Below are positions 41,201-47,773 of a stretch of 64,000 nt of DNA, in pieces. This DNA comes from Aphrocallistes beatrix (lineage: Eukaryota > Porifera > Hexactinellida > Sceptrulophora > Aphrocallistidae): NCBI GenBank assembly GCA_963281255.1, contig OY725497.1, positions 1,178,001 through 1,242,000 on the forward strand, read 5' to 3'. Made by a program: the position numbers and the translations under genes. Under the pieces are notes generated by a model. That model was not told the DNA's origin, ran no database searches, and worked only from the letters and a program-made list of their open reading frames with translations. Position 1 is the stretch's first letter. Every line of letters starts with the position of its first letter.

Positions 41201-42628
41201 TCATAGATCTAGGTTTAGAAAAGAGTCCTCATCGATGTCAAAATCCCTGTCACTATCATAATCATAATCGTAGTGGTAATCGAACCCGTGTTCCGGATTG
41301 AAAATGTCGAGATGGGTGATTTCATCTAGTGACCAATCTTCAGTGTCAGAGAATGTGAGTGAGGGCACATCGTCTTCATGGAGGTCCGGGTCGTAGCCGG
41401 ACTCGGAAAGATTGAACAGGGACATCAGATTCTCTAGCGCAACAATGTCCAATAGGTCTTCGTCATCTAAGGAATTATCTGGACGGCTACAGTCCCTTCC
41501 CAGCAACTTACACATACCACATAGCTCCTGCCTGTGTGTGCTATTCTTCTCAGGGATGATGGGAAACAGCCCAAGAATATTCGGGCTCTGCATACCAGTC
41601 TGTCGCCGGAGGCGCTTTCGATGTGCTTCTACTTCCTGTCCGCACACACGACAGCCCTGTTTAATGCCATTGTAAGTGTAAGTACTCTTCCAATGATTCC
41701 CGCAACTGCATCTGTAAGTTCCATGCATTCTCTGGTTCGGAAGTCCCTTATTCACCTCCTTCACTTGAGTGATCTTAGTTCTGCAGAGAGGACACGTCTC
41801 TTTGGTGGCGCACCATTTCACGAGGCACTCATAGCAGAAGGAATGGCCGCAGTCGAGAGAAGCTTTGTCCGTGACGTCATTCAGACAGATGGAGCATTGC
41901 TCTTTCACTTTGGTGGATTCGGTTAGTTTTACTTCTTTCTTGGCAGAAGAAGGAGGTGGAATAGGGGGAGTCTTTTTTTGAACTCTACTATGTGTCTTGC
42001 TAGGCGTCCTGCGATTGCCAGGTGAATAAGACGAATCCGCACTTTGGAAGCGAGAGTTGGGTGTGCGCTGGCTAGATGAGGGGCTGGACCTCTCTCTATA
42101 CGGAGGGCGATAAATATTCTGAGATGAGGCTTCCCTCTGAGTTTGTGGATAACGCGGGTAGCTCCTTTCCTGCTGGCCGGATCTGTTGGCACGGGGGGGC
42201 GTGTACTCTGAGTAGTGGGGAGATGGTTTCAAATCAGAGTCTCCGTAATTATAGCGAGGAGTCCACTGTCTGCCTCGAGGAGACTTGTGTGTCCCTCTAT
42301 CATTGCTTGAGCGAGGAAGCGGGGAATGCCGGGAAGCATTTCTATTATTATTTATATGCAAATGTTGAGTGTGGTTAGAAGAGCGGTAATAATCTGTGGA
42401 ATCTCTATCTCGAGTTTCGTATTGGCGAGTCTGTCTCCCTCTAGAACTCGTGTACGTGGTTGTCGTTCTTGGAGTGGGATAAGCCGTGTGCGGATATGAG
42501 CGACTTGCGGCAGGGGAATGGGAGCGGGCGGGGAAGGAGCGTGAGGAGGAAGAGGGCTTGGGTTGATAGATATAAGTACTTTGATTATACGGGTAGTCGT
42601 CCTGTCCTGAAGGAAACCTACTCGCCAT
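41201..42628 (-). CDS. RING-HC protein with 3CxxC-like zinc domain
   Basis: One exon, 475 residues. Residues 1-230 are Arg/Ser/Tyr/Pro-rich and disordered (RS-like, possibly RNA-binding). Residues 245-282 are a C3HC4 RING (C245, C248, C260, H262, C265, C268, C279, C282; CSICLNDV, CGHSFCYECL, CPLCRTK), indicating an E3 ubiquitin ligase. Residues 305-330 (YRCSCGNHWKSTYTYNGIKQ, GCRVCG) look like a 3CxxC zinc-binding domain of the type seen in ZAR1- and RTP-like proteins, followed by CGMCKLLGRDC. The C-terminal 90 residues are acidic with D/E/Y repeats. The combination is unusual. A 5' portion is duplicated in inverted orientation inside the transposon 3 kb away. The upstream sequence runs into the assembly gap. 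Confidence 0.85.
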   Translation of the reverse strand: MASRFPSGQDDYPYNQSTYIYQPKPSSSSRSFPARSHSPAASRSYPHTAYPTPRTTTTYTSSRGRQTRQYETRDRDSTDYYRSSNHTQHLHINNNRNASRHSPLPRSSNDRGTHKSPRGRQWTPRYNYGDSDLKPSPHYSEYTPPRANRSGQQERSYPRYPQTQREASSQNIYRPPYRERSSPSSSQRTPNSRFQSADSSYSPGNRRTPSKTHSRVQKKTPPIPPPSSAKKEVKLTESTKVKEQCSICLNDVTDKASLDCGHSFCYECLVKWCATKETCPLCRTKITQVKEVNKGLPNQRMHGTYRCSCGNHWKSTYTYNGIKQGCRVCGQEVEAHRKRLRRQTGMQSPNILGLFPIIPEKNSTHRQELCGMCKLLGRDCSRPDNSLDDEDLLDIVALENLMSLFNLSESGYDPDLHEDDVPSLTFSDTEDWSLDEITHLDIFNPEHGFDYHYDYDYDSDRDFDIDEDSFLNLDL

Positions 42629-42740
42629 GCTGAAAGGGTTATAATGGAAATAGGTATTTTAGAATAAGGTTTATGAATATATATATATATATATAGAATT
42701 TGAACAATAATAAAATAAATTGCTTACATGATTCTTGGAG

Positions 42741-42940
42741 NNNNNNNNNNNNNNNNNNNNNNNNNNNNNNNNNNNNNNNNNNNNNNNNNNNNNNNNNNNN
42801 NNNNNNNNNNNNNNNNNNNNNNNNNNNNNNNNNNNNNNNNNNNNNNNNNNNNNNNNNNNNNNNNNNNNNNNNNNNNNNNNNNNNNNNNNNNNNNNNNNNN
42901 NNNNNNNNNNNNNNNNNNNNNNNNNNNNNNNNNNNNNNNN
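42741..42940. other. assembly gap (200 N)
   Basis: Exactly 200 unknown bases, a conventional placeholder length. It lies at the outer end of the segment that is duplicated inverted at 45381-46122, in the promoter of the RING gene. Confidence 1.
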
Positions 42941-43682
42941 CTAGGGGATCTTATCTCAAACAAATTCCAAAAATTCTAACAAAAATGCTATTTCCTGAAT
43001 TCTGATATGACTTAAGGGCATTCAAAAAGTTATTATCCCATATCTGTATAAAGCATATATTTAATTAAAAGTACTAAGTGAATGAGCTAGAAGTACCTAG
43101 AGCATACTCAGTAAGAGCATCAAATGTATTATTAATTAATCGAATTCCCCATATAATTATTTTTTCATTCCATTTAACGTTGTAGTTTCTGGCCTTCTCA
43201 GTGACTAACTCGAGGGGTCCGACCAAATGGTGCTTCCCACATTATTAATTAAATTGATTTCGAAATTTCTATCCAAACAAGGTTTTTACTGGATGTTTTG
43301 ATCAGCATTTCTATCTGAATTCTGCTGAATATCATTCTAATTCTAGATAATCTGATACGTAGAACGGACATACCTAATTAACGAAACTTGACGGAACTGT
43401 TCCGGAATCTTAAATGCCTATTTTACGGAATACTCCATTCCGGATATTATAAATGCCTAATTTATACGGAATATTCCGTAAATTAGATTCCGGCGGATAC
43501 GATCGGATGTGGTCATTTTTGTGTCCCAGGCTGACAACTTTTTCACACTTCTGGTGTCATGATGTAACAATTTTGTATATCCATATTTTGAAGTTAAGTA
43601 CTGCTTTAGGTTTTTAAAAGGATGTTTGCATGTTATTTAATATTCGATACAGTTAAAACTAATGGAAATTGAGGGATATATA
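42941..43682. other. no gene; loose copy of the CCTAATTT repeat
   Basis: 43375-43500 carries acctaattaacgaaacttga, gcctaatttatacggaatat and tccgtaaattag, resembling the CCTAATTTACGGGA family with changed bases. No open frame of interest. Confidence 0.4.
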
Positions 43683-43857
43683 CAGGGTGTCCCATAAGTA
43701 TTGGCCGGTCTTCAGATTTTTGAATTGTAAAATTTTTATTGCAAAACCATTGTGAAATAGGACAAGTTACTTTCAATTATTGAAGTAAATAACTTGCGAG
43801 TAATTTCTATCACTTAAGTTTACAATCTAGTCATAATACAAAGCTATAATATTAATA

Positions 43858-44292
43858 GGCCTGTTGCATGAAAAAATGCCCCCCCCCGTGAAAAAATGCC
43901 CCCACCATGGATATTCATGTAATATGGGGGGGGGCAAAATTTCATGGAGTTAGCGTGAAAAATTGCCCCCCCCGTGAAAAAATGCCCCCCCACCATGGAT
44001 ATTCTAAAGTATGCCAATGCTTATACAAAACATTTTGAATGCTATTTGGCTTCTATTCGTTTACTAGAGCATTGCAAATCAACAAACTAGTCGTGTGAAG
44101 TAATAACAATGACTTTCATAAATGTATCGTATATAAATAGTATCAGCAATATTTAGTGTTACACTCAAGAATATCCATGGTGGGGGCATTTTTTCATGGG
44201 GGGGGCAATTTTTCACGCTAACTCCATGAAATTTTGCCCCCCCCATATTACATGAATATCCATGGTGGGGGCATTTTTTCATGCAACAGGCC
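43858..44292. mobile_element. nested C/G-rich MITE in the Tc1-type element
   Basis: ggcctgttgcatgaaaaaat and attttttcatgcaacaggcc are perfect inverted ends with TA on each side. Long arms containing cccccccc runs and the ccatggatattcatgtaata word extend over more than 100 bp, interrupted by an extra unit. It lies between the left terminus and the transposase start. Confidence 0.9.
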
Positions 44293-44877
44293 TATCTAGC
44301 TTGAACAAATCAATAATGAATGTCCAAGATTATGGAATCGCGATTCGTTCTAAGGCAATTGGACTTCTAGAGGGCGGTTTATCGCAGAAAATTGTTTCAC
44401 AGAGGTTATCTGTTAGTGAAAGATCACTAAGGCGTTGGTGGCATGCACACAAAGCCGGAAATCGCCTCGAAAGTAGACCCAAACAAGGTCGTCCAAAAAC
44501 AATTAGCCGAGTTGCTAAAATTGTAATTTCGAAATCTGTGGGGAAAAGGAGACAATCAACGCGAAGAATTGCTACTAGACTATCCAATAGCGGAATAACC
44601 ATCTCAAAATCAACAGTACACCGTTATCTAAAGGGTACTCTTGGCCTAAAATCTTACAAAAGACCCAAAAAGCCCCGATTAACGGAAAAAATGAAAGAAA
44701 ATCGACTAAAATTCGCCCTTAAAACAGAAAAGTGGACAATCGAGCAATGGAAAAAGGTCCTGTGGAGCGACGAATCCTCCTTTGAACTATTTTCTCTTCC
44801 AAATCGCCAGAACGACAGAGTTTGGTCAAAATCTTCAAGAAACATTGAGCCATGTCTCCGTATTAAATTTCCGAGCT

Positions 44878-45011
44878 ATTTAAAAGTAAGTAGCGCATGC
44901 GCTGCATTTGAGTAGCGCATGCGCTACATTTGAGTAGCGCATGCGCTGTACTACTCAAAAGCAGCGCATGCGCTACTCAAATGCAGCGCATGCGCTACTT
45001 ACTTTTTAAAT
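44878..45011. repeat. 134-bp hairpin with five AGCGCATGCGCT palindromes
   Basis: The left half atttaaaagtaagtagcgc... is the inverse of the right half ...gcgctacttactttttaaat, with a single extra T. The 12-bp palindrome agcgcatgcgct occurs at 44892, 44914, 44936, 44963 and 44985, with 22-bp spacing within each arm. The arms begin inside transposase codons, so the palindrome overlaps the break point. The sequence from 45012 to 45380 has no recognised content and may be the captured promoter hidden by the gap at 42741. Confidence 0.9.
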
Positions 45012-45380
45012 ATATGGAGCCAAAACATGGGGCTTGACTGGCCCTATCCCCAGAATCATAAACCTAGCGGATAGGTCCATAGTGACTAGGGTGACCATCA
45101 TTGGGCCCACTTAAACTTTGGTCCACCTTTCAGATGCTGTCACCATCAGAACGCGACTGCGTATGTATACGACATGTTGAGACTGGATTAAGGACCTTTT
45201 AATTAATGTGAAATAAAGAGACCATATAGAAGTATACCGCTGTTAATCTGTTTACCTGAGTTGTTGGCATAACAACAAAGTTCTTATGACTCGACTATTG
45301 GTTGTGCAATACTACATCTTCAAGGAGTAAAATGATTTAAATTATACTTACATCATTCTGGTGATTATAGTTATGCACAT

Positions 45381-46122
45381 CTCCAAGAATCATGTAAGCA
45401 ATTTATTTTATTATTGTTCAAATTCTATATATATATATATATATTCATAAACCTTATTCTAAAATACCTATTTCCATTATAACCCTTTCAGCATGGCGAG
45501 TAGGTTTCCTTCAGGACAGGACGACTACCCGTATAATCAAAGTACTTATATCTATCAACCCAAGCCCTCTTCCTCCTCACGCTCCTTCCCCGCCCGCTCC
45601 CATTCCCCTGCCGCAAGTCGCTCATATCCGCACACGGCTTATCCCACTCCAAGAACGACAACCACGTACACGAGTTCTAGAGGGAGACAGACTCGCCAAT
45701 ACGAAACTCGAGATAGAGATTCCACAGATTATTACCGCTCTTCTAACCACACTCAACATTTGCATATAAATAATAATAGAAATGCTTCCCGGCATTCCCC
45801 GCTTCCTCGCTCAAGCAATGATAGAGGGACACACAAGTCTCCTCGAGGCAGACAGTGGACTCCTCGCTATAATTACGGAGACTCTGATTTGAAACCATCT
45901 CCCCACTACTCAGAGTACACGCCCCCCCGTGCCAACAGATCCGGCCAGCAGGAAAGGAGCTACCCGCGTTATCCACAAACTCAGAGGGAAGCCTCATCTC
46001 AGAATATTTATCGCCCTCCGTATAGAGAGAGGTCCAGCCCCTCATCTAGCCAGCGCACACCCAACTCTCGCTTCCAAAGTGCGGATTCGTCTTATTCACC
46101 TGGCAATCGCAGGACGCCTAGC
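45381..46122 (+). pseudogene. inverted copy of RING gene promoter and codons 1-210
   Basis: This is the reverse complement of 41999-42740: positions pair as p+q=88121 over 742 bp without any indel, including the TA microsatellite of identical length (28-base block). The start codon is at 45493 and all 210 residues up to NRRTPS are the same. The copy stops before the RING domain and runs into transposase sequence. It keeps the same 5' flank, so it could be transcribed. Either a very recent transposon capture or an assembly artefact next to the gap. Confidence 0.93.
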
Positions 46123-46689
46123 TTTTTCGTTTCAAGCAGTGTCGGAATTGCATTTAATACCGAAAGGGCAGATGGTTAATGGAGCTTATTATCGGGACTC
46201 GATATTAGCCAAAACTTGTTTGGATGCGATCAAACGTAAACGGAAGAGAGGCTCAATTTTGGAACGGTCAATGCTACCAAACATGTCCGAGTTATTTTTC
46301 ATGCAGGATGGCGCACCAGCTCACACTGCCAATTCGACCCAAGAATGGTGTTCAAAGAAGTTCCCAAACTTCTGGCGTAAAGCGGAATGGCCAGGTAACT
46401 CGCCTGACCTTAATCCAATTGAAAACGTGTGGGGCATATATGAAAGAGAAGATCAGCGAAATGGGAGATGCAAATACTTTAAAGGGCCTGGAAAAAAATC
46501 TTATAGAAGCATGGAGATCAATCCCTCCAGATTTTTTAGCAAATTTAATTTGTAGCATGCCGAATCGTGTTAAACTAGTTATAGAAAAGGATGGAGATTA
46601 CATTGGAAAATAAAATTGACTTATATTATTTGCTTAAAAAAAATTATAGCAACTTATACTACCGGCCAATACTTATGGGACACCCTGTA

Positions 46690-47773
46690 TATATACGTAT
46701 ATAATTTTTTTTAAATCACTTATAATTGGGATAACTTTTTGTAAATTCAACATAGAATCGAAAACTCGATGGTTTTGAAAAGATCTCAGCGAGTAGAAAC
46801 GGATGAGTTGAACAGATTTTTTAGAAAAATGTTAAGATATTTTTCCATACGAAATTTTTCGGCGTCCCCAAGAAATATTAATGGCGATCCCGAGGTTGAG
46901 AATCACTGCTCTAAGAGGTCTCTATAGGCTAATAGCTATGGCTTCATTCACCATGCATATACTTGTCTAACATGTCCTATGTCCTTGTACTTGAAATCAC
47001 CTATTTATATCTTGAAATAAAAGCTAATAGCTATGATAGCACTTATATAATCTATACTCAATATAACCGTGTTAGAAATAACATCTGGTCTTAGAACCAA
47101 ATTTGGCAACCAAAACTGTGGTTCCAGACCAATTTAGGCGTGACAGTACCAGCGCACTTGAACATATATTTACTTACATGGAATCTTCGCTTATTAATAA
47201 GTTTTTTATGATTATTACTAACTCATATTCTCGGTTTATTTGTCTAATTCAGGGGATCTAACATGACCTTACGTCAGGGGCGGTCCCAGGGGGGGGGGGG
47301 GCATCCGGGGCATTTGCCCCTGGTATGATTCTGCGGCCCCGGATTTCATTCGACGACCTAAGCCAAAATCATAGTAAGGCGGGCCCCGGATATTTTTTCT
47401 TTGGCCCCGCCTCGCCCCGGTTTGGAAAATTCCTATGACTAATCCTAACCCAGTCATAATTAATATTCTTAAATTAAAATGGCTATTGACACCGACCGGT
47501 CTTGTTTCAAAAAGTACTAGACACCTTATCCAAGCTTCTCAACCTATAATTTAGTTAAATAATATGATGGAATTGACAAATCGTGAGATACCAGAAGTAA
47601 TGGTCTCAAAATCGTTAGACACATTACACATCAAGGACGACATATTAGTCATTGTTAGTAACCCCCCACAGCGACGGTAATTGCCACCAATTAAGGTGTA
47701 TAGCCTTTGGGTTCAAGACCAGTCGGTCACTGTCGGTGTAAATAGTTTGTTTGATTAATCCAATTTAGTAGAA
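46690..47773. other. no gene; hAT-type ends
   Basis: Near 46855-46911 ggcgatcccgaggttgagaa, tcactg is a hAT-type right end without a visible partner. 47276-47420 begins caggggcggtcccagggggg and is full of ggcccc words, probably another hAT MITE end. Nothing else recognised. Confidence 0.4.

Follow-up and report, generated by a model that had tools for sequence, protein, structure and literature searches.

Gene fragments occur within cut-and-paste transposons, and the route by which they arrive there is as a rule deduced from older copies. Pack-TYPE elements are recognised by the presence of more than one copy with a host fragment between the transposon ends, and by their being non-autonomous units in which host DNA has replaced the transposase. 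Among animals, transduplication into an element has reportedly been observed for Turmoil-1 of C. elegans. Pack-TYPE elements, including Pack-Mariner, have been reported in rice and maize (PMC8903248). Three other systems come close to the locus described below. Filler DNA of 1–123 bp, attributed to SDSA or end joining, is left where transposons have been excised in rice (PMC4423477); human DNA contains class 2 templated sequence insertions that bear the scars of end joining (PMC5110952); and composite insertions arise in maize through re-replication and alternative transposition of Ac/Ds (PMC4270019).

The locus resembles Pack-Mariner in that a gene fragment, the 5′ end of a RING-finger gene, is held between intact Tc1/mariner-type ends. 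Unlike the Pack-TYPE elements described in PMC8903248, it is a single disrupted copy without a family, and both halves of its transposase are present. The best reading of the present case is that the Tc1 element was the recipient of the fragment and not a gene-capturing vehicle. If confirmed, it warns that finding a gene fragment between perfect transposon ends does not in itself count as evidence for capture by that transposon.

Results

The recipient element and its relatives

The window, that is, the whole stretch of 64,000 nucleotides that was analysed, corresponds to C11:1178001-1242000 of a 100.5-Mb eukaryotic assembly in 28 contigs. Rfam, applied to the whole window at gathering thresholds, gave no match; a match to TMEM254 was among the Pfam domain hits and points to an animal. 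The recipient comprises the following features.

43683-46687, plus strand: Tc1/mariner DD37E element, delimited by inverted ends (43683-43709 and 46661-46687) and TA duplications
43863-44287, unstranded: a further palindromic element, nested separately towards the 5′ end of the Tc1 element, with AGGCCT duplicated at both borders
44316-44872, plus strand: N-terminal part of the transposase (HTH_Tnp_Tc3_2), as far as the break (Pfam, family alignment)
46125-46613, plus strand: C-terminal part of the transposase (DDE_3; Pfam, family alignment)

The inverted ends are perfect over 27 bp, or form 34-bp arms if the TA-rich flanks are included, and are bordered by TA duplications at 43681-43682 and 46688-46689, in agreement with the initial annotation, which had recognised perfect ends on an element of Tc1/mariner type. 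Counted on the 356-aa frame of the family copy L026, 37 residues separate the second D of the transposase from its E. This frame is intact in two of the 12 family loci (L025 and L026), and since these copies keep it uninterrupted, the family may, judging from its sequences, still be active. The frame in the window is not only split but also shifted by one surplus base in a G run near 46432. Another Tc1/mariner group of the DD37E type, DD37E/TRT, has reportedly been described. The intact copies of the present family, with a length of about 1.3 kb, TA duplications, the 37-residue D–E spacing and a 356-aa transposase, resemble DD37E/Mosquito as described in PMC10379824; the copy in the window differs in being interrupted. 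The nested palindromic element at 43863-44287 has the ends GTTGCATGAAAAAATGCCCCC and is missing from that site in nine of the ten other Tc1 copies that were read there, L025 having a piece that resembles one of its ends.

The initial annotation had proposed a search of the genome for other copies of the element with and without the insert. Searches with both element halves, in which the best candidates were scored, revealed at least 12 further copies extending across the insertion point, and none of these 12 carries the insert. The point is uninterrupted in all 11 of them whose sequence was inspected there, which read ATTAAATTTCC, then 26 bp, then TTTCGTTTC, with small variants in some. For the twelfth (L031) the motif search was empty, and the BLAST coordinates give the same 26-bp spacing. 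Where the relatives have 26 bp, the window has 1252 bp (44873-46124).

The N-terminal half is 97.5–99.7% identical to the window in 11 of the 12 places and about 96–97% identical in the fragmented L033. For the C-terminal half the identity is 96.1–99.6% in nine places; the other three are L033 (a shorter match, 95.4%), L034 (86%, with an internal gap) and L035 (divided by a deletion, 97.6 and 98.5%). The N-terminal part is closest to L026 (99.7%), and the C-terminal part to L024 and L025 (99.6%), followed by L026 at 99.5%. Both halves thus share close relatives, which fits an origin from one Tc1 copy.

The insert and its source

The insert, the RING-finger gene and the intervening gap are made up as follows.

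41201-42628, minus strand: RING-finger gene, 475 aa in a single open frame, from whose 5′ end the copy was taken (ORF, Pfam, sequence comparison)
41999-42740, minus strand: source stretch, 112 bp of 5′ flank plus codons 1-210, abutting the gap (sequence comparison, genome search)
42741-42940, unstranded: assembly gap of exactly 200 N (N run read in the window)
44873-46124, unstranded: insert of 1252 bp in place of 26 bp of transposase (alignment with uninterrupted copies)
44873-45016, plus strand: palindromic MITE of 144 bp, its terminus exactly at the left edge of the insert, without target duplication
45017-45380, minus strand: 364 bp, presumed upstream DNA of the RING gene
45381-46122, plus strand: exact inverted copy of the 5′ flank and codons 1-210 of the RING gene (sequence comparison, genome search)
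45493-46179, plus strand: chimeric open frame of 228 aa, 210 of them the N-terminus of the RING gene, without the RING domain
46123-46124, plus strand: TT at the right junction, absent from the RING source (filler or slippage)

Once reverse complemented, 41999-42740 and 45381-46122 are identical at 742 of 742 positions, the TA microsatellite included, so that chance similarity of the two stretches is ruled out. The exactness of the copy also indicates that it is recent. A search of the 100.5-Mb assembly with the 742-bp fragment returned these two places only (two candidates, both scored). The observations made at the outset, namely an exact inverted copy free of indels, with a TA microsatellite of equal length and a start codon, hold. 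The copy consists of 112 bp of 5′ flank (45381-45492), the ATG at 45493 and then 210 codons in common with the RING gene, whose own ATG lies at 42628 on the minus strand. These codons end ahead of the RING domain, which the copy lacks, and its frame reads on into Tc1 sequence to give the 228-aa chimeric frame. The RING domain is located by Pfam matches at residues 244-283 of the gene. Together with these matches, the continuation of the frame, intact, across 41998/41999 leads us to regard the gene as the source and the stretch within the transposon as the copy. The designation RING/3CxxC, given to this gene in the initial annotation, is upheld in its first part; for the second there is a match to PF17180 with an E value of 0.039, below the Pfam threshold.

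The 742-bp copy within the element had also been reported correctly, but it is part of a larger foreign segment, the 1252-bp insert. Of the latter, 742 bp match assembled sequence, the gap would hold the source of 508 bp, and filler accounts for 2 bp. Within the presumed upstream DNA, 45021-45124 is a divergent dispersed repeat with 78–89% identity to 19 other places, and the assembly contains nothing else that matches 45125-45380, which is expected if the source is unassembled past the end of the contig. At the right junction, 26 bp have been deleted and two bases added without any homology, as in end joining. On inspection, the insert is rejected as a complete mobile element, whether of TIR or Helitron type: of its two edges the left one alone coincides with the end of an element, and comparison with other copies assigns both ends of that element to the 144-bp MITE.

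The MITE as a junction

The MITE has many relatives, of which 28, chosen from among the matches listed, were taken in short stretches. Flanks were compared for the 17 copies with a recognisable end pair, the other 11 being left out, perhaps in some cases because the stretch was too short. All 17 two-ended copies have runs of 6–8 bp common to both flanks, as expected of a target duplication (one-base offsets allowed). In a control of 266 mismatched flank pairs the common runs were 1–6 bp long, 6 bp being reached in one pair and 5 bp in five. The flanks of the MITE in the window, AAATTTCC and GAGCCAAA, have a longest common run of 1 bp, which does not exceed the runs of mismatched pairs. An ordinary MITE insertion, which would have left a target duplication around this copy, can therefore be rejected. 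Since the left flank is Tc1 sequence and the right flank belongs to a different site, the MITE is the junction of two places.

The 17 copies are not all independent, since three of them (L087, L095 and L100, on two contigs) share one target sequence, the flanking octamer CCTGGAAC; either this insertion site is itself a repeat or the copies are duplicates. Another relative, found in the MITE search, is 99% identical over 145 bp, and by this measure the family looks young. One relative, L090 (C8:1773352-1773591), has two facing ends of the 5′ type (GAGC...GCTC) where asymmetric ends are the rule, an arrangement that suggests fold-back rearrangements within the family.

The assembly gap

The shared 742-bp stretch and the left contig stop at the same point, the gap edge at 42740/42741. 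There are no further N runs elsewhere in the window or in the 82 loci examined, and on both counts a connection between the gap and the copy is probable. The assembly was interrupted by a recent inverted copy containing a MITE able to form a hairpin, or else the copy is itself the product of an interrupted assembly. That the source was a neighbour of the recipient also presupposes that the scaffold is correctly ordered on the two sides of the gap.

Discussion

The junctions look like those of break repair within a Tc1 element and not like those of Tc1 transposition. We give an even chance to a real and recent repair patch, that is, templated filler primed at a MITE inside the Tc1 element. A member of the palindromic MITE family would have been present in the transposase gene at AAATTTCC, or in the course of insertion there, when a double-strand break occurred just to the right of it. 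Its broken end may then have carried out strand invasion at a second, homologous MITE that lay upstream of the RING gene and, provided the scaffold is correctly ordered, within a few kb. Synthesis would have run through this MITE, the 364 bp of upstream DNA and the 742 bp of the RING 5′ end, thus proceeding about 1.1 kb beyond the MITE. End joining of the new strand to the Tc1 element would have cost 26 bp and added TT. We infer the break, the strand invasion with synthesis, the direction of copying and the source MITE; the account predicts that the gap holds the remainder of the source, that is, the 364 bp and a second MITE, located beside GAGCCAAA/TTTGGCTC.

Features that identify templated repair are present at the locus: a copied segment, absence of a target duplication, loss of 26 bp, the extra TT and an exact source for 742 bp. 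A short loss of flanking DNA, a copied foreign segment and one breakpoint at a transposon terminus are shared with the rice filler DNA (PMC4423477). The present insert differs in its length, in containing the 5′ end of a neighbouring gene and in the MITE still being there. The length counts against a repair patch, since 1252 bp is far above the rice range, as does the fact that the source of the first 508 bp would sit in a gap that begins exactly where the shared stretch ends. Human class 2 insertions (PMC5110952) are likewise templated, without target duplication, and accompanied by a small deletion and non-templated bases. These come from distant loci, those obtained experimentally measured 73–414 bp, and the study derives templated insertions from RNA. 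In contrast, the source in our case appears to be local, upstream DNA is included and one edge coincides with the end of a MITE. The filling of a break linked to a transposon with templated DNA is a known process; the present example is recent and its junctions are unusually clear. Among the matches listed in a limited literature search, covering titles and abstract openings, there was no Tc1 case primed by a nested MITE.

Alternatively, the insert may be an artefact, RING sequence having been placed into the Tc1 element through a chimera among the reads, an error in the assembly graph or a mixture of two haplotypes; in one variant, a branching graph would have produced a 742-bp overlap of contig ends. 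The initial annotation had regarded an artefact as a serious alternative next to the gap, and the precise position of the gap sustains this concern. We consider it less likely that a broken assembly created the copy than that a real copy broke the assembly, while still giving the former a substantial minority share of the probability. The end of the left contig coincides with the end of the shared stretch at a 200-N gap that would not be expected by chance in a window, and among loci, otherwise free of N runs. The identity is complete even in the TA microsatellite, and a 144-bp palindrome beside exact copies is a possible site of chimeric reads or graph errors. Against this, an artefact would need two distinct junctions in one Tc1 copy, at points 26 bp apart in normal sequence, of which one coincides precisely with a MITE terminus and the other shows no homology. 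In the left contig, moreover, the RING frame continues without a break. A simple inversion is rejected, because on inspection both halves of the transposase point the same way.

It is possible, though we think it rather unlikely, that the locus is the founder of a Pack-Tc1 element, in which the 1.25-kb copy was primed from a MITE lodged within a DD37E Tc1 element and the resulting 3-kb unit could move in trans. The perfect outer ends of the Tc1 element might still permit movement and, together with the two family copies that have the 356-aa frame, imply that the unit could be so mobilised. If this were true, nested MITEs would provide cut-and-paste elements with homology handles for acquiring neighbouring host genes.

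An almost identical anatomy would result from one-ended transposition of the MITE, in which one end is cut and joined to the Tc1 element, replication proceeds into the flanking RING-gene DNA and the product is then joined. This would account for an insert with an exact transposon terminus at one edge and arbitrary flanking DNA at the other. The 8-bp duplications of the family fit a hAT-type MITE, and domains of the hAT dimerisation type are abundant in the genome (the best 150 of 672 candidates were scored, all 150 above the cut-off), so that a hAT-like driver is possible. The apparent youth of the MITE family also favours one-ended transposition. Neither a hAT nor another transposase could be tied to the ends of this MITE, the recipient site has no target duplication and 26 bp of the target are gone. 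The maize composite insertions (PMC4270019) share with our locus a transposon end joined to a copy of flanking DNA and end-joining scars, but there the termini are those of Ac with 8-bp duplications. At the outer ends of the present insert we find one MITE terminus and no duplication. On balance, one-ended transposition appears improbable.

Gene capture by the Tc1 family akin to that of Pack-MULEs and Helitrons, with a Pack-type element that acquired the RING fragment on transposing and spreads with it, would be in line with the enclosure of the fragment by perfect inverted ends and TA duplications, but it is highly improbable, given that none of the 12 other places spanning the site has the insert, that one of the two places with the fragment is the gene itself, that both transposase halves flank the insert with 26 bp missing, and that the breakpoints are the terminus of an unrelated MITE and an end-joining scar.

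If the repair patch is confirmed, both junctions of a fresh event, its recipient, part of its template and the repeat that primed it would all be readable, and nested MITEs would emerge as handles for the copying of adjoining DNA. If, on the other hand, the insert is an artefact, it illustrates that a contig end near a palindromic MITE can imitate gene capture.

The surroundings of the Tc1 element, at 43486-43676 and 46707-46855, are abundant dispersed repeats. Three places hold both flanks of the Tc1 site. In L078, a divergent copy of the surrounding repeat, the sequence is approximately continuous past the Tc1 position, with 92 bp between the matched flanks against 76 expected. In L071 the flanks are separated by 1.35 kb, and in L030 (found again as L063) they are in opposite orientation. 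No place with the flanks side by side was present among the best 40 candidates of each flank search. Because neither these searches nor the other two places show continuity, L078 lends thin support to a repeat that may once have been continuous across the site. More direct signs that the two halves of the element are one insertion are their matching ends and TA duplications, their common orientation and the nearest relatives that they share. L071 also seems to carry a related Tc1-like element between these two flanks, at about the position of the Tc1 element in the window, and this hints at a TA-rich hot spot of insertion.
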